A stretch of 64,000 nt of DNA. Origin: Antedon bifida (Eukaryota; Echinodermata; Crinoidea; Comatulida; Antedonidae). The stretch spans positions 17,284,717-17,348,716 of the forward strand of contig OY727098.1 in assembly GCA_963402885.1 (NCBI GenBank), read 5' to 3'. The notes beneath the pieces are model-generated. The model searched no databases and had not been told where the DNA came from. It saw only the letters and a program-made list of their open reading frames with translations. Both the position numbers and the translations under genes were made by a program. Positions within the stretch are counted from its first letter, which is position 1. Every line of letters starts with the position of its first letter. Shown here one piece after another: positions 2,864 to 63,765 of this stretch.

Positions 2864-2935
2864 TTCCCGTGCCGGGAATCGAACCCGGGCCGCGTGGGTG
2901 AAAACCACGAATCCTAACCAATAGACCACACGGGA
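2864..2935 (-). tRNA. tRNA-Glu(UUC), copy 17, box A variant
   Basis: One substitution, G to T in the D loop within box A (TCTAGTGG to TCTATTGG). Folding is otherwise intact; transcription may be weakened. Confidence 0.85.
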
Positions 2936-3044
2936 TATATCATATGCATGGAGCATACAGTGGATAGACTGTACATTAATATGAAGTTGCATTTAACTTA
3001 TAATATAGGACAGTATACAATATGCCGAGATAAAAATAGAAATC

Positions 3045-3116
3045 TTCCCGTGCCGGGAATCGAACCCGGGCCGCGTGGGTGAAAACCACGAATCCTAACC
3101 ACTAGACCACACGGGA
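3045..3116 (-). tRNA. tRNA-Glu(UUC), copy 18
   Basis: Consensus gene; carries the ACTTATAATATAGG spacer marker. Confidence 0.96.
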
Positions 3117-3224
3117 TATAGCATATGCATGGAGCATACAGTGGATAGACTGTAAATTATTATGAAGTTGTATTTAACTAATAGAAAATACAGTATACAA
3201 TAGGCCGAGATAAAAATAGAAATC

Positions 3225-3296
3225 TTCCCGTGCCGGGAATCGAACCCGGGCCGCGTGGGTGAAAACCACGAATCCTAACCACTAGACCACACGGGA
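3225..3296 (-). tRNA. tRNA-Glu(UUC), copy 19
   Basis: Consensus gene; counterpart of copy 12. Confidence 0.96.
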
Positions 3297-3404
3297 TATA
3301 GCATATGCATGAAGCATACAGTGGATAGACTGTACATTAATATGAAGTTGTATTTAACTAATAGAAAGTACAGTATACAATAGGCCGAAATAAAAATAGA
3401 AATC

Positions 3405-3476
3405 TTCCCGTGCCGGGAATCGAACCCGGGCCGCGTGGGTGAAAACCACGAATCCTAACCACTAGACCACACGGGA
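3405..3476 (-). tRNA. tRNA-Glu(UUC), copy 20
   Basis: Consensus gene; counterpart of copy 13. Confidence 0.96.
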
Positions 3477-3584
3477 TATAGCATATGCATGAAGCATACA
3501 GTGGATAGACTGTACATTAATATGAAGTTGTATTTAACTAATAGAAAGTACAGTGTACAATATGCCGAAATAACAATAGAAATC

Positions 3585-3655
3585 TTCCCGTGCCGGGAAT
3601 CGAACCCGGGCCGCGTGGGTGAAAACCACGAAACTAACCACTAGACCACACGGGA
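3585..3655 (-). pseudogene. Defective tRNA-Glu, copy 21 (71 nt)
   Basis: One base is deleted and one changed at the D-stem/anticodon-stem junction (AGGATTCG becomes AGTTTCG). The T-run terminator is also broken by a G. Probably inactive. Confidence 0.7.
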
Positions 3656-3763
3656 TATAGCATATGCATGGAGCATACAGTGGATAGACTGTACATTAAT
3701 ATGAAGTTGTATTTAACTAATAGAAAGTACAGTATACAATAGGCCGAAATAAAAATAGAAATC

Positions 3764-3835
3764 TTCCCGTGCCGGGAATCGAACCCGGGCCGCGTGGGTG
3801 AAAACCACGAATCCTAACCACTAGACCACACGGGA
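3764..3835 (-). tRNA. tRNA-Glu(UUC), copy 22
   Basis: Consensus gene; counterpart of copy 15. Confidence 0.96.
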
Positions 3836-3937
3836 TATAGCATATGCATGAAGCATACAGTGGATAGACTGTACATTAATATGAAGTTGTATTTAACTAA
3901 TAGAAAGTACAGTATACAATAGGCCGAAATAGAAATC

Positions 3938-4009
3938 TTCCCGTGCCGGGAATCGAACCCGTGCCGCGTGGGTGAAAAACACGAAACCTAACCACTAGAC
4001 CACACAGGA
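3938..4009 (-). pseudogene. Degenerate tRNA-Glu, copy 23
   Basis: Carries the same arm changes and the same missing terminator as copy 16, 1254 bp away, so the defect was copied with its block. Confidence 0.75.
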
Positions 4010-4117
4010 TATAGCATATGCATGGAGCATACAGTGGATAGACTGTAAATTATTATGAAGTTGTATTTAACTAATAGAAAATACAGTATACAATAGGTCG
4101 AGATAAAAATAGAAATC

Positions 4118-4189
4118 TTCCCGTGCCGGGAATCGAACCCAGGCCGCGTGGGTGAAAACCACTAATCCTAACCACTAGACCACACGGGA
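4118..4189 (-). tRNA. tRNA-Glu(UUC) variant, copy 24
   Basis: Two changes: a T:G wobble in the T stem and an A:G mismatch at position 27 opening the anticodon stem. Identical to copy 28. Confidence 0.75.
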
Positions 4190-4297
4190 TATAGCATATT
4201 CATGGAGCATACAGTGGATAGACTGTACATTATTATGAAGTTGTATTTAACTAATAGATAGGACAGTGTACAATATGCCGAGATAAAAATAGAAATC

Positions 4298-4369
4298 TTC
4301 CCATGCCGGGAATCGAACCCGGGCCGCGTGGGTGAAAACCACGAATCCTAACCACTAGACCACACGGGA
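4298..4369 (-). tRNA. tRNA-Glu(UUC) variant, copy 25
   Basis: One change turns acceptor pair 5-68 from G:C to a G:T wobble. Probably still functional. Identical to copy 29. Confidence 0.88.
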
Positions 4370-4472
4370 TATAGCATGCATGGAGCATACAGTGGATAAA
4401 CTGTACATTATGAAGTTGTATTTAACTAATATATAGGACAGTATACAATAGGCCGAGATAAAAATAGAAATC

Positions 4473-4544
4473 TTCCCGTGCCGGGAATCGAACCCGGGCC
4501 GCGTGGGTGAAAACCACGAATCCTAACCACTAGACCACACGGGA
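4473..4544 (-). tRNA. tRNA-Glu(UUC), copy 26
   Basis: Consensus gene; the unit on its left is shortened in the spacer. Confidence 0.96.
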
Positions 4545-4652
4545 TATAGCATATGCATGAAGCATACAGTGGATAGACTGTACATTAATATGAAGTTGTA
4601 TTTAACTAATAGATAGGACAGTATACAATAGGCCGAAATAAAAATAGAAATC

Positions 4653-4724
4653 TTCCCGCGCCGGGAATCGAACCCGGGCCGCGTGGGTGAAAAACACGAA
4701 ACCTAACCACTAGACCACACAGGA
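4653..4724 (-). pseudogene. Degenerate tRNA-Glu, copy 27
   Basis: Shares the anticodon-stem, D-arm and acceptor changes of copies 16 and 23 and adds a second acceptor wobble, but keeps a normal T stem and the T-run terminator. It looks like a recombinant of degenerate and normal units. Confidence 0.65.
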
Positions 4725-4832
4725 TATAGCATATGCATGGAGCATACAGTGGATAGACTGTAAATTATTATGAAGTTGTATTTAACTAATAGAAAATACA
4801 GTATACAATAGGTCGAGATAAAAATAGAAATC

Positions 4833-4904
4833 TTCCCGTGCCGGGAATCGAACCCAGGCCGCGTGGGTGAAAACCACTAATCCTAACCACTAGACCACAC
4901 GGGA
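4833..4904 (-). tRNA. tRNA-Glu(UUC) variant, copy 28
   Basis: Same two substitutions as copy 24, 715 bp away. Confidence 0.75.
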
Positions 4905-5012
4905 TATAGCATATTCATGGAGCATACAGTGGATAGACTGTACATTATTATGAAGTTGTATTTAACTAATAGATAGGACAGTGTACAATATGCCGAGATA
5001 AAAATAGAAATC

Positions 5013-5084
5013 TTCCCATGCCGGGAATCGAACCCGGGCCGCGTGGGTGAAAACCACGAATCCTAACCACTAGACCACACGGGA
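5013..5084 (-). tRNA. tRNA-Glu(UUC) variant, copy 29
   Basis: Same acceptor wobble as copy 25, 715 bp away. Confidence 0.88.
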
Positions 5085-5187
5085 TATAGCATGCATGGAG
5101 CATACAGTGGATAAACTGTACATTATGAAGTTGTATTTAACTAATATATAGGACAGTGTACAATATGCCGAGATAAAAATAGAAATC

Positions 5188-5259
5188 TTCCCGTGCCGGG
5201 AATCGAACCCGGGCCGCGTGGGTGAAAACCACGAATCCTAACCACTAGACCACACGGGA
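5188..5259 (-). tRNA. tRNA-Glu(UUC), copy 30
   Basis: Consensus gene; counterpart of copy 26, 715 bp away. Confidence 0.96.
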
Positions 5260-5366
5260 TATAGCAATACATGGAGCATACAATGGATAGACTGTACATT
5301 AATATTAAGTTGTATTTAACTAATAGAAAGTACAGTATACAATAGGCCGAAATGAAAATAGAAATC

Positions 5367-5438
5367 TTCCCGTGCCGGGAATCGAACCCGGGCCGCGTGG
5401 GTGAAAACCACGAATCCTAACCACTAGACCACACGGGA
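5367..5438 (-). tRNA. tRNA-Glu(UUC), copy 31
   Basis: Consensus gene; the downstream T run is four long. Confidence 0.95.
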
Positions 5439-5546
5439 TATAGCATATGCATGAAGCATACAGTGGATAGACTGTACCTTAATATGAAGTTGTATTTAAC
5501 TAATAGAAAGTACAGTATACAATAGGCCGAAATAAAAATAGAAATC

Positions 5547-5618
5547 TTCCCGTGCCGGGAATCGAACCCGGGCCGCGTGGGTGAAAACCACGAATCCTAA
5601 CCACTAGACCACACAGGA
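5547..5618 (-). tRNA. tRNA-Glu(UUC), copy 32
   Basis: One acceptor change (C4 to T, pairing T:G). Probably functional. Confidence 0.88.
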
Positions 5619-5728
5619 TATAGCATATGCATGGAGCATACAGTGGATAGACTGTACATTAATATGAAGTTGTATTTAACTAATAGATAGGACACAGTGT
5701 ACAATATGCCGAGATAAAAATAGAAATC

Positions 5729-5800
5729 TTCCCGTGCCGGGAATCGAACCCGGGCCGCGTGGGTGAAAATCACGAATCCTAACCACTAGACCACACAGGA
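5729..5800 (-). tRNA. tRNA-Glu(UUC) variant, copy 33
   Basis: Acceptor T4:G wobble plus an A:C mismatch at the base of the anticodon loop (position 31). Confidence 0.75.
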
Positions 5801-5908
5801 TATAGCATATGCATAGAGCATACAGTGGATAGACTGTACATTAATATGAAGTTGTATTTAACTAATAGATAGGACAGTGTACAATATGCCGAGATAAAAA
5901 TAGAAATC

Positions 5909-5980
5909 TTCCCGTGCCGGTAATCGAACCCGGGCCGCGTGGGTGAAAACCACGAATCCTAACCACTAGACCACACGGGA
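5909..5980 (-). tRNA. tRNA-Glu(UUC) variant, copy 34
   Basis: C61 is changed to A, breaking the near-invariant G53:C61 pair and box B (GGTTCGATTAC). The flanking spacer on its right is also diverged. Possibly inactive. Confidence 0.65.
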
Positions 5981-6094
5981 TATGGCTTATCTATGGAACA
6001 TGCAATGGATAGAATGTACAGTAATATAAAGTTATATTTAATTGATTAATAGTAGGCCTACAGTATACAATAGGCCGAGATATAAATGGAAATC

Positions 6095-6117
6095 TTCCCG
6101 TGCCGGGAATCGAACCC
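6095..6117 (-). pseudogene. tRNA-Glu 3' fragment, array edge
   Basis: Only the 3' acceptor strand and most of the T arm (23 nt) remain. Homology to the array stops abruptly here, marking its right boundary. Confidence 0.85.
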
Positions 6118-10200: not shown

Positions 10201-13200
10201 TCATAACGCATAGCAGGTTTTATCGGAAATTTCGTTTAACTTTAACGTTTCGTTGTATTTGCTTGCAAGGACATTATGTTCCGTATTGGATACTGAATTC
10301 GCAATGATTATACCAGATGATGACTTTCTTCGTTTACGACCAGTTCTAGCACTTCGAAAATGACTGAATTCACTAATTTCACCCACGCTACTTCGGCGTC
10401 GGTTGAGGTAGGCCTCTGGATGCATCAAGTCCGACTTCGTTGATTCAGTTGAACCACTTGGCTTCCCGTACCACCCAAGTGCATAGTGACTTGACGTTGA
10501 CGATGTAGTTCGATCTGATCCACCCGCCTTGAGCAAATTCTGCAAACTAACTTTGGATTCGTAAAGAGAAAGAAGTTCTCGAGAACCTGATTGATTTCTT
10601 TTATGTTTCCATTTTTGGTGAAGTAAGTTGCCTGATGGGCTAAGATGATCTCTTGAAGAGTAAGCCATGGACTCGCATGAGTTTGCAAGCTCGCTACAGT
10701 ATTCTTGAACCCATTTTATCTCCTCTATACCATCATGTATGTACATAAACTGTTGCATAAGTTTGCCATCTGACTCTTTGATTTCCGCCTGCAACAAAGT
10801 AAAGGAACAAGTCAACATATAAGCAACAATTACATATACTATGCATAAAGTAACTAGATATTTTTCTGTCCCTAATATGTATAAACGCGATGACATAATT
10901 ACTGAAATTTAAAAAAAGACGTATGAACTTATTGGGACTAACAAAAAAAACACCAAAATGTGAATACTCCCCTAAAAAGTGCATTCACGTGTTGTCTGGT
11001 TGGCACGCGATTTGTTACGCTTGGTTTGGCACAGACGCCCGTTCAACTGCGACTAATAACCACCATTGCGTTTCATAAATCACCGTGAGGAATCGAAACA
11101 AAAGAATGTATAAAATAAGAGCTTTGAGAGTGGCATTTGTCTGAGTGGAGTACACAAATTATTAACAATTGGTTTTCAAACTCAAAGGCTCAACATTTAG
11201 TCAGTGAATTCAATAAACAGCACTTGGCATATCAGTAACAAATCATAAAGAAAATCAAAGCGAGGTTTTTTAATGTCTTTATGGTATAGTAGTGTACATG
11301 AGGTTTTTGTATAAAATCTCCGTATAAATAAATGTTACTGGCTGGGATTTGGATAATAAGTCTAGAACTTTCCTTATTAAGGATGTAGTGTAGAACAGTA
11401 CAGGGTGTCAGAATTGTTACAACGGAACTTAAATCGAAAGTCTTAGCTTCTACAACTGTGATAGACAATATATTTATGTTTAGGGGTGAACATGTGTTAT
11501 CTTAAAGCGACACTTGGTGAGTTGCTGATTCATACTCCTGGTATTCTGGTTAATAGCTCAAACTGTATTCAATGACGGGTAAAACACGGTTTACAATACA
11601 GTACAATTACACCTTGGCATTTATTAGTTCCACTCAGTGATTGTCTATTTGTTTCATTTTTAACTTCTGCGTTATGAAAGGGATAACATAATTGTTTTAA
11701 ATGTATTAATATAGAGTCACACCAGAATGGAAACGGCATACGAAACGAAGGAAATTATTGTTTATTGGAAATAATAGTGTTTTCTATAATACTAATAGGT
11801 CGAGGATTAGAATGTTTTTTTTTAAACCAATGAGCCCTCCAATTCTTCTTAATACATCTCCAACCTGTTGATGGACATATATAATAGCGAGTGTCGCTTA
11901 GTTTCTATATTACTTGTTTTAAAACATGTTTATTGAATGTTTAAACAGAAATGATACTTAAGCATACTAATGGATATTTTAAAACAATGTCTATTCTACA
12001 ATAATTAGTATCATTTTCTGTTGGTTAGTATCAGTTTTAAGTCCATTTTATACTTTTATAAGTAGAAAACAATTTGTTATGTATGAATTTGTATTAGTAT
12101 ACATGGTGATCCATACATTTTTATACATTATATATAGGCCTACGATGTTTATTTTTCTGAAAGAAACAAACATAGGCCTACTTGGGCATACGTTTTTTTC
12201 TTGGTATTTTTGTAGCATGATCCATGCAAAATTGTTTTGTTTACAATACGCCTAGTAATACGTTTTAGCATAAGTTAATGTTATTTAAAAGTAATGACCT
12301 TTTCGATGATATGCAATAGTTATCTTTTTACCCAACGTCAAATTAGAAATGATCGGATTTAACGTCATAACTTTAAAATAACATCCGCAATAGTATGAAA
12401 TCAATTGAAACAAAAATGTTTAGTAACGTTTTAGGAGAGTAATTAAGTATACTCCCTTTCTCTGGTAATGAATATGCGATAAATCAAAATTATAATTTCC
12501 AACGGGGAATTCCCTAAACTTATGTCATACTTAAAACGTTGTACTAATGAGTTGTATTTCTTTAAATACAATGTACAGACAAAATGTAAACAACAGGCGA
12601 ATCATGTAAATGTGTGTGGCCAGACTAAATAGATCAAAGTCCTCGATCATAATATAGTGATTATTCAAAGAATATAACCATTTGTTTGCGAATATAATCA
12701 ATCGTAAATGTTAACGTTCATTTTATGGCTAAATGTACAGGATATGGTACCAGTCATTAGGTGACAACACGATAATGTCTATAATATTCAGAGTATTGCA
12801 ATACGGCAGGCCTATTACAAGAAAATAATGTAACTTGGTGGTACAATGTGTTGTACGTGCTCATTATGTTTGCATATAGTTTTCACTTATGACATGACAG
12901 ATATGGTTGATGGATGTGACAAATTTGAAGTGGGCCTATTGTTAACAAAAAATCACCCTTTTTTTGGTTAAAATAGGCCTACAGTATATTCATTTTAAAC
13001 ACAAAACTATGATCGGTCTTATGTTTATGCATGCACGAATTATTACTATAGTTTTGATCTATTTGATAATTTTCAAAACGCATCGAAACGTCAAATACTC
13101 AATATGTGTTCTTCTTTATTTGAACTTCAATGGAACTGACAAGTCATAGGTACAGTCGGACTCGTGTCTAGATGACTTGCGATAGTCAGTTACAATCTAT

Positions 13201-15647: not shown

Positions 15648-15810
15648 TAAAGCCCTGAGTCTACACTATCAAACTTTATTTGACAAAAATGTGATGAGCC
15701 CATGTGCATGATGATGTCATATCACTACCATATTTAAGCATATCACTACCATACTTGGGCACATCACACACTTTTTTGTCAAACTAGTTTGATAGTGTAG
15801 ACAGAGCTTA
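15648..15810. mobile_element. MITE-like element, family B, copy 1
   Basis: 163 bp with inverted ends of about 27 bp: GTCTACACTATCAAACT on the left and its complement AGTTTGATAGTGTAGAC on the right, flanked by TAAAGC / GAGCTTA. The interior carries two tandem versions of CATATCACTACCATA. Confidence 0.8.
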
Positions 15811-29833: not shown

Positions 29834-31012
29834 CATCACCACAACCGCAATATTTCAAATTATTGATAGACAAGACTCGTTTTAGTTTATATGTAAAACA
29901 ACAACACCCCCACCCCATACCTCCCCTTCTACAATGCTACCAATAGACGGATTACGATGTTATTACTGATGGAATGTCCGTAATGATTGACTGTACGTCT
30001 CATCAGTACGCACATAAACATCATCATATTATTATTTAATTCCGGAGTGATGTCTGAGGAACCTTTTTTTATCCATGTCTACAATCAATCTTGTTCATCA
30101 AAATTACATCATCAAGGGGTTCCGAGAATTTGAAACGTTCATGCACCAATTGTAATTGAGGCAATACGTACGTCATTTCTAAACATGCAGTGACCAATTT
30201 TAGACCTATTTTGTATACAAAAATCATTTTATACGTAATTCCAATGTTTACGTCACAACAGTGAATATCATGTTTTCCTTTTGTTACACAAATAGCAAAC
30301 TAATTCAGTTCTCTAGGCCTACTAAGAGTATTTTAATGAAATAATGTATTAGTCTATTATCTGATATATGTAGGCGTGGGCTGTGTCTTACGAACGTGAA
30401 ATGCCATTTGATTCGAGTTGATGCACATAAAAGCGCAAATGATCCAATTATTTAGCCATTAGGATCCTATACATGGGTCGTAAGAAATGGTTGTTACCGC
30501 GTCGCACACCGTAAAATCTGGGAGTTGAATACGAGAATCAATCAATCAACGCATTGTTCAATAGTTATTACATTTAATATTCTTATCCAATCGGTCAATA
30601 GATTAATTTTCAACACATCACTGGTGCTTGATGTTGCCAGTTATTCGTTGAGTATAATATCCACGAATGCAATTCATTTGTTAATGAGCAAAGTTGATTT
30701 GCTTTTTTATATGTTCTAGTTTATTATCTGCTTGCAATATAATAATTATTATCAGTTCACTTTTAAAAGTATGGCCTGCCTCTCTAAAACATTTGCCATT
30801 AATCGATGGAATGCATCAGTCGTGCACGACAATATGTGGTCCCACAGTGTTAGCACTGCGATTGACTGTGGAATCAGAAATATATATAATTTTAATACCG
30901 TTGACTTCTAACCTTGTTCAGATGAAGTATGCTGATTAAAGTTCGCCTACAGCTGCGTGTAACCCAAGTCTGGGTCGATGCATTTTCTTTTAGAACTTTA
31001 GAATTTGAATAA

Positions 31013-32355
31013 GTATGTGAGTGAGAAGTTTATGAGTGAACGGTGTGTGAGTGAAAAAGTTTGTGCGCGAGCAGTTTGTGAGTGATCAGGTTGTGAGTGA
31101 ACGGTGTGTGAGTGAACAGTTTGTAAGTGATCAGTTTGTGAGTGATCAGTTTGTGAGTGATCGTGAGTGATCAGTTTGTGAGTGAGCAGTTTGTGAGTGA
31201 GCAGTTTGTGAGTGATCAGTTTGTGAGTGATCAGTTTGTGAGTGAGCAGTTTGTGAGTGAACAGTTTGTGAATGATCAGTTTGTGAGTGAACGGTGTGTG
31301 AGTGAACAGTTTGTAAGTGAGCAGTTTGTGAGTGATCAGTTTGTGAGTGATCAGGTTGTGAGTGGACTGTGTTTGAGTGAACGGTTTGTGAGTGAGCAGT
31401 TTGTGAGTGATCAGTTTGTGAGTGATCAGTTTGTGAATGATCAGTTTGTGAGTGAACGGTGTGTGAGTGAACAGTTTGTAAGTGAGCAGTTTGTGAGTGA
31501 TCAGTTTGTGAGTGATCAGTTTGTGAGTGATCAGTTTGTGAGTGAACGGTTTGTGAGTGAGCAGTTTGTGAGTGAACGGTTTGTGAGTGAGCAGTTTGTG
31601 AGTGAACGGTTTGTGAGTGATCAGTTTGTGAGTGAACGGTTTGTGAGTGAGCAGTTTGTGAGTGAACGGTGTGTGAGTGAACTGTTTGTAAGTGAGCAGT
31701 TTGTGAGTGATCAGTTTGTGAATGATCAGGTTGTGAGTGAACGGTGTTACTGTGTGAGTGAACGGTTTGTGAGTGAACGGTTTGTGAGTGAGCAGTTTGT
31801 GAATGATCAGTTTGTGAGTGAACGGTGTGTGAGTGAACAGTTTGTAAGTGAGCAGTTTGTGAGTGATCAGTTTGTGAGTGATCAGTTTGTGAGTGAACGG
31901 TGTGTGAGTAAACAGTTTGTAAGTGAGCAGTTTGTGAGTGATCAGTTTGTGAGTAAACAGTTTGTGAGTGAACAGTTTGTGAGTGAACGGGTTGTGAGTG
32001 AACGGTGTGTGAGTGAACAGTTTGTAAGTGAGCAGTTTGTGAGTGATCAGTTTGTGAGTGGACGGTTCGTGAGTAAACAATTTGTGAGTGAACAGTTTGT
32101 CAGTGATCAGCTTGTGAGTGATCAGCTTGTGAGTGGACTGTATGTGAGTGAACGGTGTGTGAGTGAACGGTGTGTGAGTGAACAGTTTGTGAGTGAACAG
32201 TTTGTGAGTGAACAGTTTGTGAGTGAACAGTCTGTGAGTGATCAGTTTGTGAGTGAACAGTTTGTGAGTGAACAGTTTGTGAGTGAACAGTTTGTTAGTG
32301 GACGGTTTGTGAGTGATCAGTTTATGAGTGAACAGTTTGTGAGTGAACAGTTTGT
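31013..32355. repeat. 15-bp minisatellite, about 89 units
   Basis: The unit is TTTGTGAGTGANCAG with N or the next base varying (GAACAG, GATCAG, GAGCAG, GAACGG). The 15-bp length and stop-free unit leave long open frames on both strands: + strand pentapeptides FVSEQ/FVSDQ, - strand THKLF/THKPF. Multi-unit sub-blocks (an ACGGTGTGTGAGTGAACAG module followed by GTAAGTGAGCAG and GATCAG units) recur, showing higher-order repetition. There is no reason to think either frame is translated. Confidence 0.95.
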
Positions 32356-32868
32356 GATGTTGATGAATCCTCTTATTGTTGTATGGAATTTATCTTTCAT
32401 TTCACATATAAAGCACGACTGTAGATTAGCTTCCTGGATGTTACATTTCATATTATATGCGTAGGCCTTTTTCCCAGGCACATTTATCGACAAACTTGTT
32501 TCCTCCTACTGCTGTCAAATAATAAAGTGCAATGAACAGGTGATCAGCATGCAGCCTTTAAAAAAAATATCAAATAACATGCTATATTAATTCATATTAA
32601 GTGCTTTTAATAGGAATACCATACATTAATAATGTTATTGTAACTGAAGTGAAACAGTGCCTTATTAGTTTTATAATTGCTTTTTTCTGTATGTTGTTTC
32701 GTAATTAATTGGAAAAAAAACCAGTTTTTTAACCGTCCGTTGTAAGAATAAAAGACACGAAGACCATTTCTGATACTAGAAAGTATGTTGTCAAATAAAT
32801 ATGTCGTCTACATTGATCTTGTTTTTTGCTAACACAATCTAATTTTTATTTTTTAAAGGATTCATGAA
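32356..32868. other. Spacer and presumed 5' UTR of the GPCR gene
   Basis: AT-rich. A pyrimidine-rich stretch ending TTTTTATTTTTTAAAG at 32858 could be a splice acceptor for a 5' UTR exon. A three-codon upstream ORF (ATG AAA TGA, 32864-32872) overlaps the receptor start. Confidence 0.4.
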
Positions 32869-33972
32869 ATGATAATTGATGAACAAGAAACGACGACTAA
32901 CACTCCTACCCCGGAGTTACTTAGGACTACCGTCATGAGAAACATGTCATGCAACTTTAATGCGAGTTACCCACCTTTCAAGCTTACTGACACTGAAAAA
33001 TACTTATCGATCATAATGTTTCCTATAAGCGTTATTGTCTTACTAGGTAACGCATGGATTTTCCAAACAATCGTGAGGATGAAGTCACGAAAAAAGTATT
33101 ACCACATTATTGCGAGCCTGTCAATGACTGACTCATTTTTAATGATAGCGTGCATATTTGTAGCAGTTGAATGTTTGAAGAATGGTCGTAGTTTTATATA
33201 TTTAGACTATTTACCCGACTATCGATGGGTCATCGCTTCGTACTTCGAAGTCACGTCGTTACTACACGTTATTCTACTAGCATGTGAACGTTGCGTTGCT
33301 GTGAAATATCCGTTTAAGCATCGCCAATTACAGAAAAAGCAATTCATCTACGTTATCATAATGCTTTGGATTGCATCGATTGGAATTAATGCATGTCTGT
33401 ATGTTTCTGGGCATTTCGGGTACGCAGACTGTCATTATGGTACAGTGTATCTCAACAACGGTATTGTAGCCTTGACTATCGTTATTGCAGTTACGTTTCA
33501 CATAATAATTTACAGAACTGCTACAAACTCTACAAGTCGTATTGTGGGGAGCATAAACAGAAAAACTCTCACTCGGAATAGGTCGATGAGCCGACTTAGT
33601 GGAAGTGACATTAAGGCTGCCAGAACTACCGCCATTATTCTTTCTGGATTTGTAGTCTGCGTAACGCCATATGTGATTTGTTCAAACATTGCCTATTTTA
33701 CTAAGGATTTCGATGCAATTAACTCACCAATGCTTGCTATTGGCTATTTTCTAGCTATATTTAACGTTGTTATAAATACAATAGTATACGGACTTCTGAA
33801 CGACGAGTTAAGACGCGCGGCGTTGGGATCATTGAAGGCGTTGTGCCGCAAAGGTGATGTGGAAGCGGCACACAGCCATACGCGGAGACCGTCTGACACG
33901 ATTTATCGATTACGTATCAATCAATTAGAACAGTGTAAAATAGGTGGTGGTAACGAGAAGTGCCCAATTTAG
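32869..33972 (+). CDS. Class A (rhodopsin-like) orphan GPCR
   Basis: A 367-residue receptor in one uninterrupted coding exon. Seven hydrophobic segments lie at about residues 45-68, 80-100, 118-142, 158-180, 188-206, 251-273 and 286-308. Family marks are GN (60-61) in TM1, SLSMTDS (83-89, Asp88) in TM2, an E-R-C triplet (140-142) where DRY is usual, CVTPY (264-268) in TM6 in place of CWxP, and NTIVY (303-307) in TM7 in place of NPxxY, followed by a helix-8-like LLNDELRRAALGSLK. The N-terminus has glycosylation sites NMS and NAS. The usual TM3 cysteine (3.25) is not at its expected place, which is Pro. It would signal through G proteins at the plasma membrane; ligand unknown. The start at 32869 is the first in-frame Met after an in-frame stop. 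Poly(A) signal candidate at 34214. Confidence 0.9.
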   Translation: MIIDEQETTTNTPTPELLRTTVMRNMSCNFNASYPPFKLTDTEKYLSIIMFPISVIVLLGNAWIFQTIVRMKSRKKYYHIIASLSMTDSFLMIACIFVAVECLKNGRSFIYLDYLPDYRWVIASYFEVTSLLHVILLACERCVAVKYPFKHRQLQKKQFIYVIIMLWIASIGINACLYVSGHFGYADCHYGTVYLNNGIVALTIVIAVTFHIIIYRTATNSTSRIVGSINRKTLTRNRSMSRLSGSDIKAARTTAIILSGFVVCVTPYVICSNIAYFTKDFDAINSPMLAIGYFLAIFNVVINTIVYGLLNDELRRAALGSLKALCRKGDVEAAHSHTRRPSDTIYRLRINQLEQCKIGGGNEKCPI

Positions 33973-37644: not shown

Positions 37645-40361
37645 TCACCAGGTAGTACTTGTAAAATCAAACATTTGCGATAATGATTTAGCAACTCGAA
37701 ACATTTGAATTAAGATAAATAGACAAGACAACGTAAACAGCATTAGGTATATTGGCGAAGTTGGAACTTTGTATTGCTTTTTGATATCCTGCCTTTTTAA
37801 ACGTTTCACTTCTCGTAAATTTGCTAAATCTAGCTCATGAATAAACGGCGAATTTAACTTTTTTTCGTCGTTAACTGAAGATAAATTCCATGATGGATAG
37901 TGAAATCTGATGTTATTATATCGTTTTGCCCAACGTGCAAAAACTGCCTTTTCTGTGATAAATAAATGACCCGTGTCCAAGTTGATCTCACTTTTCTTAT
38001 AGTAAGCACACTCTTTGTGCCCATTCTTCTCATAGTAGTGGTATAAGGTTGGGTCTGATTTTCTGAAAAGGAACAATGAACAATTGTTTATTCTGTAGGC
38101 CTATAAGACATTAAGCCTAAAGATCTGTTTACCTTGGTTTGTAACAAGGATATAATAGTATCATATGGATTAGGATGGATCAGAATCAAACGAGTAGCAA
38201 TCAGTACAATACCGGTTTAATAGTAGTAGTAGGTATTGTAGTAACTTCATTATTCATTTTTTATTTACCCATAAAAGGAACAATATGAAGGAGATTTCCT
38301 TTCCCCTAATGTGTTAGACCTATGTTAACTGATGTGTTGTTTTTTCTCTCCTATTTTTGTTAGAAACTGCATTAGGGCTTACTTTTAGTTTTGAACAGAA
38401 TATTGTTTTGATATTCATTATGTTTAGTCAATTATTTAAAACATTTTATGCTAAGTTTTGCTTGTTAAGTAGGCTTAACGTGTGAAAAATAAATAGAGGG
38501 CGTGAGTTTATTTATTTTATTTTTAAAGTGAGAGTAACATCCATGTCTCAAGCCAGTATAACTTGTTTTGTTAAATGTTAGGCATTTGCTTTAAGTATAC
38601 ATTGTTTCTAGTAAACGCAATTAAAAATTACGTTCTTGTAATCTTGTTCTTATACTTTTTCTTTTATATTTTTACTGACATTTTGACCAAATAAACGATT
38701 GAAAGAAGGCCTACCTGCACAACTCGTACTGCGTCATACCGTATACGTGAATATCACTACAGATGCTTAAAGAAAGAAGCATCGTCTGCCATCCAGTTGT
38801 AAACCATGTTTTCAACTTTGACCTGACAGGAAATTATACGATACATTTAACATACATTAAATTAATCACCCTCAGATCCGCCATGTTTTCAAGTGAGATA
38901 AGAACAGTATAATATTTCGATTTTATTTTTAATTGACATTATTTTTACCTTTGAAAGCCTGTCTCGATCAGAAATATGTCCTCGACAACCATCAAAGCAC
39001 GTTTTAAGGGAATGTAAAATTCCAGATTAGAAAACTGATTCGATAGATTCTTTGCGATCATTATTTCAGGCCCAGTCATGTTAACTGTATCATTATACAG
39101 CCAAGGCATTATAATAAGAGTATGGTTCCTTTTGTTTTCAATAATTTCCCCCCGTGGATATAGAAAGAGCAATTTTGATTTGTTTTGCAGGAATTTAACA
39201 TTCGCGTTTCCGACTACCCGAATATCTGTTCGTCTTCCGACATCTTTTTCGTATCCAGTCACGGGTGCGTTGTTCATTCTAATAACGCAGTCTGATTCGT
39301 CAATTTTCATCCCGGCACTTTGGTTTACAAGTCTGCCCGAACTCATGACAACTGCGCATGTGGAACATTTGCGATCTAAAGTCTGGAAATCAAATGAATA
39401 AATGTTAGCAGTTTAAAAACAAATTTTCTAAGAATTAAAATCAACAAATAAAATATTTAGAATGACTTCCAGAACTGTTTTGCTTCCCAGTTTGTCTCCA
39501 ATCTTAAACGTTTGGTGGACCAATTAACAAACCTCCCTAGGCTAGGTGGTCTCCTTGGTTGTAAACAAATTGTAAATGTTTTGATTTTCATTTTACTGTT
39601 TCATTGGCATATATGCACATGGTTCACACTTTAAATTCATAAACCTGTTAAGTTTAATTTCTGATTTATAACAAACAATCACAGTTCCATTTTTCTACAA
39701 GAAAGGATCAAAGGTGGTTTGAAATTTATTCCGAAAATTAAGAATTTAATAGAAAATCAATAAGCGTTTAATATAAATCAGACTCAACAGAAATGGGCTA
39801 TTATGGTAGAACTGAATTATACTTAAAAAATCGTTTTATAAGCTTTATATTATTTATATACATGTTATTTATTTTATCTGTAATTATATACTGAAAGTTA
39901 TTGTTTGAAGGTTTGCATGGCGAAATCAAATGTTGATATAAAGTTTGCGGTACACCACGTATATTAGTTCTGAAAAGACTGATCAAAGTTGAAAGTTGAA
40001 ATTAAATAAAAATGGGCTTCCCTTCCTCACGAACAAAAACCTCACAAGTTCTTACCTGTTTTTTATATAAATGTGTATACATTTCGGCAAGATTCATTAT
40101 TAGCTGCGTAACCAATAGGTTTTTCTGAGATAAGTTAGGTGAGAACCCCGGCGGTAAAAAGTTATTATTTTCTTGTAGAGTACGTAACGTCTGGATGTCA
40201 TTCTTTTCTGCCGCCGATCGAAGACTAATAAGTTGGTTGAAGTCAAACGAACTTTGGGGGCGCAATGCATCATCTGATTTTATATACCGGTATATAATAA
40301 ACATGTTGAAAATTAGAAATAAAGCAATTGTGAATATCCATATCTTGTGTCGTTGTTGCAT
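37645..40361 (-). CDS. ST6GalNAc-type sialyltransferase (GT29), paralogue A
   Basis: Coding exons 40361-40056, 39382-38949, 38822-38715 and 38062-37645 join in phases 0, 2, 2 into a 421-residue protein. N-terminal signal anchor at residues 8-26, then a stem. The sialylmotifs are complete: L begins CSTCAVVMSSG (108-118) and continues DCVIRMNNAP; S is GWQTMLLSLSICSDIHVYG (257-275); motif III YHYYE (290-294); VS H-x4-E (His315-Glu320). The spacing and HYYE...EC pattern resemble ST6GALNAC3/5/6, which transfer sialic acid alpha-2,6 to GalNAc of O-glycans or gangliosides in the Golgi. Unusually, about 75 residues follow the catalytic PSW motif: a basic linker, then a hydrophobic segment (387-405) and a tail ending TTW. 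An acceptor (TTTTATTTTACAG) ends at 40386, just upstream of the ATG, so a 5' UTR exon is expected. Specificity is inferred. Confidence 0.9.
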
Positions 40362-52099: not shown

Positions 52100-54925
52100 A
52101 TGCGGGTCAGACCCTTCACGTTTTTTCTATCGATAATAATTTTATTGACCGTACTCAATATCATTTTTATTTACGAGAGCACGAGGAGTTCTACCTATGA
52201 CGCTAAAACGAAACAACATGAACGAATTTTGGCGGAACATTATGCTGCGTCTAAAGACATCATTGATACACTTCTTAATGAAACGCAATTTAGGCGTATA
52301 CAAAACGACGACGACGCGTTTATGAGGATTGAACAACGCAATAATTCCCTAAATGTGGAGGCAGTAGATTACATTCCTGTAGAAAATACAGACATTATTA
52401 AATTATCTTTCCAAGACCTTTTCGAACTCCTTGTTAATAACACTAATAAAAATAGTATTAATAGACGCAAGAGAAACCAAACCAGTGATCTAAAACACTT
52501 TACTTATAAACATATGTCAAAGTCAATACAAGCACAGTTTACAGCAGAAAAGATAAATTCATCTTCCACTGAAAATACATCGTTATCATTGAATGAAACG
52601 TACGTTAGAGACCTAATAAAAAAGACGGTAAAATGGTACCATAATCTGAATCAGGACCAGGTTAGTACGAGTCATTTTAGTATTAATCCAAATGCAAAAG
52701 GCGCTTAAATGTTCTCATGTTTAGCCTACACAATCCATCCAGGTGGTGCACGAATGCTTTATGTAGTAAATATGTTAAAACTACATTCTGCATAAATTAA
52801 AACCCGTCAGTATTGACCTTTTAATGTTAACTCGCCACATTTAACCCGGCAGTATTGACCTTTCAGTGTTGACCCGCTACCTTTGACCCGTCAATATTGA
52901 CCTTTCAGTGTTAACCCGTCACATTTGACCCGTCAATATTGACCTTTCAGTGTTAACCCGTCACATTTGACCCGTCAGTATTGACCTTTCAGTGTTAACC
53001 CGTCAGTACTGACCTTTCAGTGTCAACCCGCCACATTTGACCCGTCAGCTTTCCCGTTCTAGATATTGATTTAAAGTTACGAGCATCATGTAATAAACTA
53101 CTCACCTTCTATTGTTCTACAGGAATACAATCATCATTGCAGAAGTTGTGCTCTTGTGACAAGTTCGGGTCGTCTTTTGAATCAAAGTTCTGGATCAGAA
53201 ATTGATTCCGCTGAATGTGTCATTCGAATGAACGACGCTCCCGTGATCGGATTTGTCAACGATGTTGGAATTCGAACGGACATACGGGTCATGGGTCATC
53301 CAAACCTGGCTACACTAAAAAAGAATCCTGAGAATCTTTTAGAAATTTTTCATAAAAGCTCAACAAAAACAAAATTTCTATTAGTACCCTGGCTTTACAA
53401 CACAGATGTGAATAAAACATCAGATAAGTATTATGCAATTTTACGAAACTTAACTCGAATGTTCCCGGATGTAAACATTTACGTTCCGTCAAAGGATGCA
53501 ATGGACGCAGCTGAATCTATCTTCGAATTTGAAGTTGGACTCCAAAGGTAAGACACAAACATAATACTTTAGAACTTACTATCAATATTCAATTCGTTAT
53601 CATTAATTTACCCCCATAACTAACCGCCGAATGATGATCGTCTTTGTTAATGCACTGATAGCCATGTTATGACTGGCTGTGCACACTGTAAGCTAGGCCT
53701 ATGGTACAGACCCATTTTATTTTTTGACATAACTGGTTACTATCATATTTGACATGTTACCTCAACATTTTTTACTGGTTACTATATTGATATCATAATC
53801 GACATGCGCAGAATCACATAATGTGTTCTGTGCATGTTATCTTAACATATTTTAAAAAGTCAATTTTTTCGCCACTTTTCGAAAAATTCCCTGTACTATA
53901 TTTCTAAAAATGGCCAAATTTCGACCCTTTCATTTTTTGACAAAACTGCTTACTATCAGCGCAGGATCACAATGTGCTCTGCGCATGTTACCTCAACATA
54001 TTGAACTGGTTACTATCATAATTGACATGCGCAGAATTAGCTGTTGATCATATCCCAACCAATTACCAGTTCAAAAGAAGTTACTTATGTTTTAAAATCT
54101 TACCATAACGTCAGTGATTATAGTCTTATATACACATTATATTAATTCAGGTCTAAAGTGAAGACTTGGTTTACAACAGGTTGGCAGACGATGTTGTTGT
54201 CAATTAGTATCTGTGATAGGATTAAGGTGTATGGTATGCCGCAGGTGTCTCATTGCAGGTAAACAGGACTACATTATACTTTCTAGTTATGTATAAATCT
54301 GTATAGGCCTACTTTACAAACGACCGGGCACTCATACTATTGTTCATAATTTACACTTTACACATAGAACACGGAATAACGACATTAATTTGTTTTTACA
54401 CGGGACACACGTGACATTTATTTGAATATCTATTATTTAAGTGATGATAATGATAAATAATACTTCTTTTACTTTAGTAATTCGTCAGACAGAACACCTT
54501 ACCATTATTACAATGAGCATGGGAAACGAGAATGTGATTATTACATGAGCAGTGAACGCCGTCTCGATACCGGGCATATATTTCTGACCGAGAAGGCCGT
54601 ATTTTCTAGATGGGCTCACAAATTCAACATTACGTTTCATACCCCAAGTTGGAACATGACATTTAGCGAAAATGGAACACTTGATACACCGTTTATACAT
54701 GCATACAATCAGGCGCATGATAGAATTAGTCGAATTGGTCGAGAACGAAACGAGTGGCGCGAAAGGATGAGAAAAAGGCGCGAAAGAAATATCAACACTC
54801 CTACTGAAGAGCCACTGTATTTTCTTTTGTTTTCTGTAACACTTCTTGTGGTTGTTTTAAAAGGATGGGATATTTTAACTTTCATTGCGACATCAATAGT
54901 GCCAGAGTCATGGCAAAACTGGTGA
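52100..54925 (+). CDS. ST6GalNAc-type sialyltransferase (GT29), paralogue B
   Basis: Coding exons 52100-52660, 53123-53547, 54151-54258 and 54478-54925 join in phases 0, 2, 2 into 513 residues. Signal anchor at about residues 7-25. The stem is long (about 160 residues), rich in Asn-x-Ser/Thr sites. Motif L begins CRSCALVTSSG (193-203) with ECVIRMNDAP; motif S GWQTMLLSISICDRIKVYG; motif III YHYYN (373-377); VS His398-x4-Glu403. As in paralogue A, the catalytic region is followed by a highly basic linker (RRERN-rich), a hydrophobic segment at about 477-500 (PLYFLLFSVTLLVVVLKG) and a tail ending QNW. Exon 3 is exactly 108 nt in both genes. It probably transfers sialic acid alpha-2,6 to GalNAc-containing glycans in the Golgi; the acceptor is unknown. 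A poly(A) signal candidate is at 55610. Confidence 0.92.
52800..53052 (+). repeat. Minisatellite, ~42-bp unit, in intron 1 of sialyltransferase B
   Basis: Five to six imperfect units built from ACCCGTCA(C/A)(A/T)TTTGACC and ATTGACCTTTCAGTGTT. The unit itself contains a half-repeat (ACCCGTCA twice). Confidence 0.9.
53713..54070 (+). repeat. Tandem-like repeat in intron 2 of sialyltransferase B
   Basis: Repeated modules of about 75 bp: ACTGGTTACTATCATA, GACATGCGCAGAATCACATA, TGTGCTCTGCGCATGTTACC, then TCAACATATT, interleaved with GCCACTTTTCGAAAAATTCC and ATGGCCAAATTTCGACCC. The same modules recur at 55790-56280. Confidence 0.85.
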
Positions 54926-57059: not shown

Positions 57060-60000
57060 TTAGGCCTGCAGTCCCTTGCTGATAAGGAAGGATTCTTGGC
57101 TTGGTTCACGGCCTAGAAATTTCTTCAACATATCAATAGCATCCTGAAAAAGTAAATAGTACTATGGTATAATTGTATAATAAAAGTGTAGCAAAAAAAC
57201 TTTAAAACAAGAGGCAGGTTTTCCAATAGCAAAAGCTTCAACACAATTTCTAGGAGTGTGTAGGAGCTGTAATAGTACAGTGCAGTGGCAATAACAATAA
57301 CATAGTTTAAATGTGCCGTAGGGCCCCTCGGAAGAGCAGTTTTATTTTATTACTGAGAGGGCTATCCTACTGAAAGAAAACAAAATAAAATAAAATAAAC
57401 ACCACTATTAGAAGAATACTAATAGCAAACTAGAAGTATAGTAACATTAGCAATAGGTAGCTTTTGATTTTCAACGACCAAAATGACCTAAGCATTTTGT
57501 GTCGTTGGTCATCCATCTGGACTTTTGATTGAAATTTTGAGCGATAAACTATCTCTGAATGCACACACTGAATCAACATGTTACTAGTTCCTATGTTGTG
57601 TAAATCATAAGCTCCCTAGTAGCAAGCGTTTGTTTCGGGACGACAAAGAAGAAGGTAACTAAATAGATTGTAAATATATGTTCAACTCGTCACGGTTTGT
57701 TACATTAACGTCTTCTTCGTCTACCATCCTGAAACGAAAACTCATTACCCTTACTGTAGCAACAGCAGTAGTATTATTGTAGCAGTGATAGTACGACGAT
57801 ACTCACCATAGACCCACCAGGCTGAAGGATGTATTTTCTATAATCCATTCCCACCTTTGGATTCATTATACCTTCCTTCTTGAAGCGGGAGTGAAACATA
57901 TCCATGCAGTAAACTTCACTCCACTGAAAACAAATAGATAGAATTCAATTAAAAAAATACTTGTTCAATATCATTATCAAATCATCACCTGATTGGTGGA
58001 ACAAGTCTTCTCGGATAAGGACTATAAACTGTAGGTCCGGTGTACACAGTTTGTCTGTGTACACTATAAAGAACCAACTTCATCTTTCCCGAAAAGTAGG
58101 GGATTACCCCGATGAACTGGTTTACAAAAAAGCCCCTGTGTCAGCAGGAGTATCACATGGTAGTCCTTGGCATGTGCCTAAAATATAAAAATATATAGTC
58201 AGTAATTATCAATAGTAATGCATACCAAATATCCATAATACTGTGCGTCATATCCATCAGCAAGATGGCCAAATGCTGCACACATGTTGGTGTTTGGAGT
58301 GGCAGGAATCTGCAGAACATCTTTGGAAATCTCAGCATAGATGGATTGTGTATCAGCCTAGCAAAATAAATACAAATGAGGATTAAAATAAATAGCTAAA
58401 GATAGCCTTTTGGTCTGAAATTCTAAGTCAATGTGTAGCAGACTTAGGTCGTGACCTTTGACCTAAGTACCAAGTTTTTATGTTACTATACAGGTAAAGT
58501 TCATTATTTGAATGTTTGTTCTTACTTTATCTTTAGTATGAATTGTTTGGTCAAAGGTGCCAAGCAAGATTTGCCGCTGGTTAAACACTCCAGCATTTGC
58601 GTTGCGTGCCTTTACCAGCTTATCCATTAGTTCATCAGGAATAGCGCTTCCATCCTTGTAGTGTTTTGACATACGTGACAGAGATTCCTTCTCCCACACC
58701 CAGTTCTCCAACATCTGTGATGGCGCCTCTACAAAATCACGCTCCACACGTGTTCCACTGCAAGAAAAATGAATTCACTAAAATTATTGTACACAGACCT
58801 TTTTCAATAAATTTCACTTTTATGACAATAAGTAATTTAACATAGTCTTAGTAGTCTTTGCACAGCCTAAACTTCAATAGTGTACTAAGTTTATCATAGG
58901 CCCTTCGCTGGCCCAAATACTTCTTCAATCCCAAGATGGCATGGGTAGGTCTTAAACTGTTTTTCACATACCAGTTCAATTATTCAAAATAAGTCTCATC
59001 TAAAAAATTAATTTTTGAAAAAAATTTCAATGGAGCAACAATAATGTTAACAGTAGACTAATTTTGTTCATGGTGTTATTTGGTTTGGTTGATTCTACAC
59101 AAACCTGAAATATGTGAAGTCTGTTTGTCCCAGTATATCATGCATCACATGACCAAATTCATGGAAGAATGTTTCCACCTGTATTGACAAAAAAATAAAA
59201 AAGTTGATCTCTAAAGTAATTTGAATATATGCAAATACCTGAATAAGCTGATCTCAGCCTGGGAACAGATCTGATGCATCACATGACCAAACTCATGGAA
59301 AAATGTCTCCACCTGTTGGCAATGGTTAATATAAAATAAACAATATTTAAAAAACATATGAAACTATACATACACAGCGTTTTAAAAATACAGTATTAAC
59401 AATAGTAACACAAATCAACCATCATTTTGTATGGCACCAATTTCTTATATATTTCTTATGCACAGCCACCGACGAAGACATGTTTTATAAACCACCAACT
59501 CTACCTTTTATTTATTTATCTAATTAATTATTTTACTGTAACCTCAATGTAGGTCAAATGGTTTTCTATTTTGTAAATGGTAGTCTCTGCTTAAAGTCTA
59601 TTTCTAGACTTATTTTGACCACCATCCACATTCATACTTAATTAATTATTTATAAAGAAATATATTATGTATTATTTGTGGAAATCAAATAAAACAACAC
59701 ACTAATTAAGAGAACATGAGCTACTGCTACAACAAAATGTCTCAATCCAACAAAGTCTCTAACTTCTTTTCCTACTTACATCATCATGAGTTAGAAGTGA
59801 TGGTTGGTCTGAGGTAGGCTTGGTGAAGTTAGCCACCATGGCTGCAGCTGCAGACTGTCTGCTGCCATCTGGCTCTAAACAACCAGGCTACACAAATGAA
59901 ATTAATGATGAAAGCAGGTTAAGATACTTAAACTTAGCTCTGACTACACTATCAAACTAGTTTGACAAGTGTGATGTGCCTAAATATGGTAGTGATATGC

Positions 60001-63000
60001 CCAAATATGGTAGTGATATGACATCATGTCCATATATGGGTACATCACATTTTGTTGTCACATAAAGTTTGATAGTGTAGACAGGCTTTATAGAGAACAA
60101 CATCTGTTTTAAAACTTTCTAGTGGATTAAATCTGAAACAGGAAATTGAACCAAGTTTCTAACAGATACAAATACTTTGAATAAGTGTTAATGTTTAATT
60201 TAATTTTTCTATAGAAATCAATTATATAATAATTTTACCTGCAACCCAAAGCATGCTGCGTGACTGAACTTGCCTTCACGTGGGAAGAGGTCAAGAAAGA
60301 AATGACCCATGAACTGGTCAGTTGCTACATCAATTACAGTGAACTAAAGACACAGACAAAAAACATATTTAATTACACATATTTAATTAATATAAAATAA
60401 TTACTTCAAAGACTATTCAGATAGCAGAGCATGTATTCTAAATGTGTTACAATATTATACAACAAATGGGTTTTGAGACGAGAGATGTGGAAGTGTATGA
60501 CTCACCATTTGTACATCCTCATGCCATACTGGGGGGTTCTCAACTTCCTTGAATTTTAGGCCGAGAAGTTCCTGTAAGAAATAAAATAATTTTAAACAAC
60601 TTTGGACTTTCAAGATTTGTGTTATATTCCCAATTAAATTTAGACAGAACACTTTATCTATAAAGAAACATGGCAGGTGAATACTATACCTGATATATGT
60701 TTAATAATCCAGTGGTCACATGATCCAATGGGAAGTATTCCTTCAGTTTATTGTGATCAATGGAATATTCCCTTTCCTCGGCAATTGTCATGTAGTAACG
60801 CATATCCCAGTAGTTAATCTTGCCGTCAAATTCAATGCCTAGTTCTTTGCACTGTGAATAGTAATAATAATATATAGTGCATATACAGTGTATATAATTA
60901 TATAGTGCACAATGTTCAAAGTCTCAAAACACATTATTACGCAGATCATTTTTATCAAACACATAATTATGGACAGATACTTCCAAAATGTTGCAGCTAG
61001 TAATCAGCGCAGTGTGCTTTTGACCTTACCAGGTACCAATTTCTACACCTGGGTGGAGAAAATAAAAGTAAGTGTCTTGCCTGACATGACACAAGCAATG
61101 CAACAAGCATTGGACTCAAACTTCTGATCACGCAATCATAAGTCAAACATCAAACACACTGTACCACAAGCTCTCATACAATAGTAAATGTATAAATATT
61201 CATTCTGACATAAATTCACTACATGTTGATTCTATTTATGGTAGTCATATACTGCCATGCTCTAAAACAAAATACCTCTTCTTCCTTGTATTGTAGAAAA
61301 CGCTTCAATTCCTTCTCTTGTAGAGGGCGCAATTTCTGAGACAAATCCTTAAGAAAGGTTGCAACAGACTCTGCTTTCTTTGCCATACGCATGTCTAGGA
61401 TGAATGCGGCATGCGTTGGAAAATCAAGTAGTTGGGATTTCTGGAATTAAAGAATATAAATTATTAATTCATAACTTGAATTATAAATATATATATATAC
61501 ATATATACTCTTGTAACTGAATAAATGTTGTTACTGCAGAGAAACTTAGTGCTAGTATTTTCAGTAGTCTGCCGTTCTTGTACAATGTGGCAGAGTCATT
61601 AATGGCAATGTGTTTGGTGGCAACAATTCTGGCATTCAAAAACTCAGGGCCATGATCAGAACAGTGCCACTAAATGAAATTGATGAATCTGTTTCCACTA
61701 ATAAAGTCTCAATGAAGATACTTAGAGCTTAGAAAGGACATCTTAAAATTTGTTGTCACAAAATATGTCAAGTTGGATTACATCAAAATTATTCTCACCT
61801 TATGACGAATTTCAACTAACTCTTCCATTATCTTCGTGTTAGCTTCTTTGCACCTAAAGTCAAAAGCGTAGATTTATATCACTATAGTGTACATTCACAT
61901 GGTCCCTTTAATACCCAACAAGTGACCCAGAATTTGTGGGTATAAAACATAAGGCAATCATAGAAGAATAAGAGGATACTGAAAATATGGGTATGTATGT
62001 GTGTGTAAACTATCATTACTATCAACAATCAATGGCACAATTTGAAAACATTTTCTTCAGAGCAACATAGCATGATTTATTGTACAGGATGACTCTTTTT
62101 ACCTAGAGTTAAAGGCAAACTCCATCTGCCGTCTGGTCTCTGGAATTCGACATTTCTTCATGACAGGGAAGTAGTCTGGGTACTGGAGAGTAACTTTACA
62201 CTTTCCATCACTGGTCTAAAATATGACAAAACGATTGGTAAACAAAGTAGATAATGTCAAGGTAGAGTAGAGCCACTATTTTCCTCAACAGGAATTTGCA
62301 ATACTTTGTTGTGTCTTTTAAGTATAAGATTCTATTAGAAAAGTTATATTCATTTCAAGAACATTTCTTACCTTTTCAAACCTCTTGATAGCATCTGCTG
62401 GTACACCATCTAAACAGAAATAAAAGAAGTTGATGATACCAATCAATATGAATTCCCATTACAGAAAGGAAGAAATCAAATTAAAGTTGGCATTAAAGTA
62501 TTACTTACTGACAAGGCAAGACATTTTTCATGGTAGCATTGAGCCGCAAATACAATTATTAGTTCTTAAGACCTCTAACTTGTAGAAGAGTGAAAGAAAC
62601 TCTAAACTTCCATGGAGTATAAAGACCATTCTCTTGCCTCTCTTACCTAATTCTTTCTCAGTAAACTCTAACACTGTATTCTCATCATTGATATTCTTGT
62701 TGAAATCAATGGCAATGTCACTAGCTCTTTTTTTCATGGCTTTTATCTGATCTTGGATATCTTTTGCCAGATGCAGTCCTGAAGTAAACAAAGATACAAA
62801 TTACAAATAATGTAGGCCTATTTCACAGATCGATTTGTAAATCATCCCAGTAATAAAGGTATATCTATATAAGGCAGCAGCATTTGATTTGATAGCTACC
62901 GATTAATAATGGTTTTAGTTAGTTTAATTAGTAGTAGTGGAGCTGTAGCTTGGTGGTTAACGTGCTTGCCTTCCAATCCCAAGGTCCAGAGTTCAATCCT

Positions 63001-63765
63001 GAACTAGTGCCAGGGTTGTAACTCACGACTCTTTCAACTCCACTCCCTAAGCCTCAAATGAGACTTAGTTTATAAGCACGATACCCTTCTTCACCCAAGA
63101 ACCCCATCCCAAAACTTGTGTGGCGTCAATCAAATGTTAGACCTACCATTTCGTCGACCCAATTTGATGAGTTTCTCCAAATAACGTTTGGCTTCTGGTT
63201 TAAGTTTGGAGACATCGGTTTTACTCTGGAATGCTACCAAATTATCAAAAACATCTTGCCTCATACTGAAATAGAATAAATTTACTCAATTACAGACATG
63301 CAGTAAAATAATATGGACTCATCTTCATTCTTAAGGTGGTCCATGCTTTAACCATAATAGAATAGTAGTAGCTATTGCTAACAGTATGCTGTCTCACTCT
63401 TGGACTGTATAGTTATTTAAATAGGCCCCAGCTGTGTTGTTGTGTTGAGAGCTTTAGAGTTACTATAGTAATGGTACTATACCAATGTCATTAAGGCATG
63501 TAGGAGCTTCAATTTTCAATCACCAGGTAGAATTTAATTTGTGTAATAATTATTTCATATTTTTAAAATGTATATTCACACAATAAGTGTAAATTTTGAT
63601 ATTTTACAAGGGCATATTGCCATACCTCATCTCAACATCAAATTCAGATAGTTTTTTATCTGCCTCTGTGCTTGCCTCGCGGATCTCTTTCTTGGCGGAG
63701 ACATGCTGCGGAAAGTCTAACATGTTCCTCTGCACACTGTAGTAACTGTCATTGTCTGTCATAGA
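57060..63765 (-). CDS. Thimet oligopeptidase/neurolysin-like M3 metallopeptidase, 5' end outside window
   Basis: Exons 63765-63626, 63265-63147, 62778-62647, 62409-62372, 62215-62103, 61853-61799, 61440-61276, 60851-60690, 60571-60506, 60343-60239, 59887-59780, then 59312-59239 or 59178-59105, 58757-58526, 58357-58226, 57923-57807 and 57143-57060. All have GT-AG borders and compatible phases, giving 613 residues. Human THOP1 has 689, so about 75 N-terminal residues lie beyond the window. Family marks in order: [83 protein letters not shown], the zinc motif [21 protein letters not shown] (third zinc ligand Glu), and [16 protein letters not shown] (substrate loop). It is a zinc endopeptidase of short peptides, in cytosol, mitochondria or secreted; the location cannot be judged without the N-terminus. 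Confidence 0.96.
57990..58150 (+). mobile_element. SINE family S1, body only, in a peptidase intron
   Basis: Has TCTTCTCGGATAAGGACT, CTATAAACTGTAGGTCCGG, GTACACTATAAAGAACC, CTTCATCTTTCCC and AGGGGATTACCCCGATGAAC, matching the bodies at 14.7 and 28.6 kb. The tRNA-like head is absent. It lies antisense in the intron 58225-57924. Confidence 0.7.
59105..59178 (-). CDS. Alternative exon a: duplicate zinc-motif exon, neurolysin-like
   Basis: Also 74 nt with the same phases, acceptor after a strong pyrimidine tract (TTTTTTTGTCAATACAG) and donor GTTTGT. It encodes [13 protein letters not shown], then [11 protein letters not shown], closer to vertebrate neurolysin (QTDF). The first 39 nt differ from exon b only at synonymous sites, while the last 35 nt are strongly diverged. 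It is separated from exon b by a 60-nt intron. Confidence 0.88.
59239..59312 (-). CDS. Alternative exon b: zinc-motif exon, THOP1-like
   Basis: 74 nt with acceptor CCAACAG and donor GTATTT, entering in phase 0 and leaving in phase 2. It encodes [13 protein letters not shown] and then [11 protein letters not shown], which fits the animal thimet oligopeptidase pattern after the motif (SQAE). It is the more upstream of two alternative copies. Joined to 58757 it gives an uninterrupted frame. Confidence 0.9.
59934..60090. mobile_element. MITE-like element, family B, copy 3, in a peptidase intron
   Basis: Inverted ends GACTACACTATCAAACTAG and TTTGATAGTGTAGACAGGC. The interior holds two tandem AAATATGGTAGTGATATG units and ACATCACATTTTGTTGTCAC, in inverted orientation relative to copy 1. 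It sits in the intron 60238-59888. Confidence 0.85.
62936..63130 (+). mobile_element. tRNA-derived SINE, family S2, in a peptidase intron
   Basis: Box A TAGCTTGGTGG (62946-62956) and box B-like AGAGTTCAATCC lie at tRNA spacing. The body CAACTCCACTCCCTAAGCC, GAGACTTAGTTTATAAGCAC matches the element at 42.5 kb. No tail; antisense within the intron 63146-62779. Confidence 0.75.

Follow-up and report, generated by a model that had tools for sequence, protein, structure and literature searches.

Thimet oligopeptidases trim signaling and intracellular peptides, and vertebrates have two genes in the thimet oligopeptidase/neurolysin family. By their titles, PDB entry 2o36 is an engineered thimet oligopeptidase with neurolysin specificity in the neurotensin cleavage site, and 2o3e is the reverse. 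Tandem mutually exclusive exons (MXEs) are a known kind of gene organization; PMC5740500 applies a steric criterion of under 50 bp to human MXEs and sees steric interference in only 9% of the human MXE clusters. The main texts of PMC5740500 and PMC9741552 make no mention of THOP1 or neurolysin, and no report of MXEs in a gene for either enzyme appeared among the titles and abstract starts listed from the open-access literature; relatives may well have annotated isoforms of this kind. Here we analyzed a 64,000-nt stretch of Antedon bifida DNA (the window). From its sequence, we consider it likely that a thimet-oligopeptidase-like gene carries a tandem-duplicated, mutually exclusive exon pair, the isoforms differing modestly and without a switch between thimet oligopeptidase and neurolysin. 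The exon pair is probably functional.

The gene model consists of 15 shared coding exons and the alternative pair, with introns having AG/GT borders (Table 1). From exon e2 onward, the product is 613 aa with either alternative exon, and the two isoforms have an identical score of 516.7 bits with Pfam Peptidase_M3. Against human THOP1 (1s4b), isoform b scored 899.5 bits across residues 3-612; its score against neurolysin (8vju) was lower, at 861.7 bits. Both the richness of the gene in introns and its similarity to the mammalian enzymes point to an animal source. At the 5' end, the exons found include no equivalent of ~53 residues of the THOP1 chain, this part being either outside the window or unrecognized. 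The HEFGH motif, the Glu located 25 residues past its second His, and the M3 domain place the product in the thimet/neurolysin subfamily; the motif and the domain were checked on both isoforms, and the structure-chain alignment used isoform b as the query. The third zinc ligand was assigned to e14 by family knowledge and is taken as such here. In NCBIfam, two prokaryotic models alone matched, both under their cut-offs. No relative was confirmed in viral contigs, where a looser HEFGHxxHD pattern retrieved three contigs, all with the same unrelated 595-aa frame. An intron of the gene contains a short array of 21-bp units (59971-60020) that resembles a distant array (15718-15767) on the opposite strand (CATATCACTACCATA); the two are perhaps one dispersed repeat.

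Table 1. Positions of the M3 peptidase gene and its alternative exons in the window
Feature	Position	Strand	Basis or content
M3 peptidase gene, exons e2-e17	57060..63765	minus	Exon model and Pfam PF01432
Upstream shared exon e12	59780..59887	minus	Ends in phase 0
Alternative exon a	59239..59312	minus	13 catalytic and 11 divergent residues; Cys at third divergent position
Intron between exons a and b, 60 nt	59179..59238	minus	
Alternative exon b	59105..59178	minus	13 catalytic and 11 divergent residues; Leu at third divergent position
Downstream shared exon e14	58526..58757	minus	Carries presumed third zinc ligand and thimet-type Arg

Exons a and b are each 74 nt long with AG/GT borders, and both enter in phase 0 and leave in phase 2. 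The initial annotation had described two adjacent 74-nt exons of the same phases that yield a protein only when used one at a time, and the borders and frames of the exon model agree with this description. Exon a alone or exon b alone leaves a single, terminal stop. When a and b are joined, exon b, the second in transcription order, falls out of frame and a stop is met after 11 codons from the junction; the statement in the initial annotation that exon a is the one misread holds only if "a" denotes the copy at 59178-59105. When both exons are skipped, e14 reads TGG AAC ACG TGT GGA GCG TGA, with the stop at the seventh codon, exactly as had been proposed. We also obtained the same figures as before for the gap between a and b, which is 60 nt, whereas the other 15 inter-exon gaps of the gene model range from 118 to 663 nt.

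The two exons are homologous, being identical at 53 of 74 nucleotides, and this identity is unevenly spread (P = 2.9e-5): 36 of 39 nucleotides in the catalytic part and 17 of 35 in the remainder. Both copies keep HEFGH at the right distance from the third zinc ligand. The pair resembles MXEs in its adjacency, homology, equal length and phase, and in the lack of a usable protein when both or neither are included. The intron stretches flanking a and b have no ungapped similarity (22/60 upstream and 20/60 downstream). A tblastn search of the 64-kb window with both exon peptides returned the two copies and then nothing below E = 0.9, and a whole-protein search (E up to 1) found no other duplicated exons in the window.

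Several other features lie elsewhere in the window. A 180-bp satellite array of ~34 copies with 94% matches occupies positions 1-6117, and a 15-bp minisatellite of ~90 copies, in which several frames are open, spans 31012-32357. Sialyltransferase exons (GT29, PF00777) are found on opposite strands at 38948-39412 (minus) and 53075-53548 (plus), perhaps as a related gene pair; the latter exon also matches solved sialyltransferases. An uninterrupted rhodopsin-family receptor-like ORF is located at 32872-33969 on the plus strand (PF00001, 50.1 bits), and an ORF at 10204-10908 on the minus strand has a short match to the LURAP adaptor protein (33.9 bits).

The layout of the short intron suggests how the exclusive choice may work. 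In the 60-nt intron, every A that lies 10 nt or more from the acceptor sits less than 50 nt from the donor, and the sole yUnAy candidate branch point is 42 nt from the donor, within the under-50-bp limit applied to human MXEs. This predicted geometry is consistent with the steric exclusion that the initial annotation had put forward: within so short an intron, the donor would be unable to pair with the branch point of that intron, leaving a and b unjoined, and transcripts that were nevertheless joined or doubly skipped would be frameshifted and lost to nonsense-mediated decay. The acceptor and the donor of exon a score 2.0 and 6.8 bits, and those of exon b 11.2 and 5.1 bits; the acceptors of the shared exons range from 5.2 to 18.1 bits for 14 exons, with 0.7 bits for e12. 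Exon a might be rarely used, given its weak acceptor, and the combination of a weaker acceptor and a better donor in a than in b leaves room for regulated choice. RNA pairing among the three introns gave no signal: the duplex energies were -21.4, -103.6 and -18.3, and 60 shuffles averaged -23.6, -103.4 and -21.8, respectively.

The same frame arithmetic allows an account in which the pair is a regulatory device: the 74-nt length is not divisible by three, the use of both exons or of neither leads to an early stop, and joining or skipping could produce a frameshifted transcript that lowers the enzyme level, the protein difference being incidental. A poison exon, however, need not preserve the catalytic residues twice, and the 60-nt intron would make joining unlikely. 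We regard this account as improbable, although it fares best among the alternatives to the mutually exclusive pair.

Somewhat less probable still is that one copy is a relic in decay, or a pseudo-exon that arose by accident, and is never included in mRNA. The weak acceptor of exon a would fit such a relic, but both copies are open, have AG/GT borders and keep 13 of the 13 catalytic residues, with only synonymous change there: the 13 catalytic codons of a and b differ by three substitutions, all synonymous (P = 0.007). As a mutational null, we simulated 200,000 copies with 21 random substitutions from each of the two exons. The simulated copies stayed open in 54% of the cases starting from a and 59% starting from b, and not one of the 200,000 from either exon retained the 13 catalytic residues.

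For the divergent segment, a profile was built from bacterial relatives. The motif used to find them leaves the 11 positions free and requires HEFGH, the spacing and DFVEAP. This panel comprised at least 118 loci, all 118 being used for the residue counts and 113 distinct segments for the profile. The divergent 11 residues scored 9.1 for a, 8.2 for b, 11.1 for THOP1 and 9.6 for neurolysin, all well below the average of the panel's own members (21.7). The mutated controls, from which stop-containing copies (41% and 38%) were left out, averaged -16.8 and -13.6 and reached the real scores of a and b with P values of 0.0033 and 0.0052. The fit of the segments persisted with a thinned panel of 37 sequences from 72 complete relatives (P values of 0.0051 and 0.0030), so the divergent parts of both copies still fit the M3 panel. 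By identity, 45 of the 118 relatives among the matches listed are closer to a, 41 are closer to b, and 32 are tied. The low scores of both segments relative to the panel count against the favored reading, as do two residue counts: at segment position 10, the L of a, the Y of b and the M of THOP1 are each absent from the 118 relatives among the matches listed, and at position 1, the D of exon b occurs in one of these 118. The mutational null makes a decaying copy unlikely: none of the simulated copies kept the catalytic residues, and the divergent part fits the M3 profile. The substitution pattern speaks against decay, and both copies look selectively maintained.

The initial annotation had called the two copies THOP-like and neurolysin-like and had proposed that one gene may make both active-site types. 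By eye, exon b agrees with neurolysin at 6 of the 11 divergent positions and with THOP1 at 3; for exon a, 7 positions agree with THOP1 and 5 with neurolysin. By these counts, exon a lies nearer to THOP1, and the resemblance of b to neurolysin, including the shared QTDF, is real but weak. QTDF had been taken as a neurolysin signature, but it represents ordinary family variation: the supposedly diagnostic sites vary freely in the bacterial relatives, with A in 63 and T in 26, and E in 23 and D in 10, of the 118 among the matches listed. Even with exon b, the product scores higher against THOP1 than against neurolysin, and "neurolysin-like" is not supported for the second isoform. The residues that distinguish the engineered enzyme point the same way. 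An alignment of this region, inspected by eye, has 2o36 differing from 1s4b at two specificity positions: E becomes R ahead of HEFGH, and R becomes T ahead of DFVE. The THOP1 loop QLCSQAEFAMF is unchanged in 2o36, and neurolysin 8vju carries R and T at these positions. Both isoforms here have the thimet-type E, present in both exons, and R, present in the shared e14, and neither has the neurolysin pair. R at this specificity position occurs in 49 of the 118 bacterial relatives among the matches listed. On these specificity residues, thimet-type in both isoforms, we reject a switch of the enzyme between thimet oligopeptidase and neurolysin specificity, and we rate it as the most improbable of the alternatives.

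To locate the swap in the enzyme, we used a structure model of the best bacterial match (L025), which shares 45.8% identity with isoform b across 596 aa. This match is an Elusimicrobia M3 peptidase (L025:2763-4796, minus strand), and the identity is close for a bacterium. The model, generated with an alignment of 32 of the 72 complete relatives, has a mean pLDDT of 93.9 and a TM score of 0.94 to neurolysin 8vju. Its active-site helix spans residues 462-479 with HEFGH at 470-474, and a loop leads to E499, which, from what is known of the family, we take to be the third zinc ligand. On this model, the swapped 11 residues correspond to residues 478-488, which form the final helix turn and the loop that runs to this ligand. 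Both isoforms would be active zinc peptidases differing at this helix turn and loop, and the difference may modestly alter peptide handling, stability or redox behavior.

At the third divergent position, exon a shares a Cys with THOP1 and neurolysin, and exon b has Leu. Among the 118 bacterial relatives in the matches listed, this position is Leu in 99 and Cys in none; the Leu of exon b may be an older state that was kept, or a reversion. The position corresponds to Cys483 of THOP1. A role for this cysteine was sought in the texts of PMC5494303, PMC3815109, PMC8215294 and PMC3382611, which do not mention C483/Cys483. We propose tentatively, as a possibility and not as the expected outcome, that the gene makes two catalytically distinct thimet oligopeptidases via the swapped helix end and loop, with the Cys lost in b; sensitivity to thiols or oxidation next to the active site could then be confined to one of the isoforms.

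If the splice choice operates as proposed, it would replace the catalytic helix while sparing every catalytic residue, a clean natural experiment on the loop beside the zinc, and it would provide a splicing route to enzyme diversity in a family where vertebrates have two genes. Compared with human THOP1 (1s4b), the product has the HEFGH motif in common, as well as the specificity residues E and R, and scores 899.5 bits with exon b; the difference is the second active-site exon in the same gene, a keeping the Cys of THOP1 and b having Leu. Neurolysin (8vju) shares the fold family, HEFGH and, with exon b, QTDF, but it has R and T in place of E and R and scores lower (861.7 bits). Human tandem-duplicated MXE sets, as described in PMC5740500 and PMC9741552, likewise consist of adjacent homologous exons of equal length and phase, and their isoforms are identical except for one homologous region. 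An exon length that is not a multiple of three, as found here, occurs in 60% of the clusters of PMC5740500. Unlike in those human sets, the duplicated exon here encodes the catalytic helix of a zinc peptidase.
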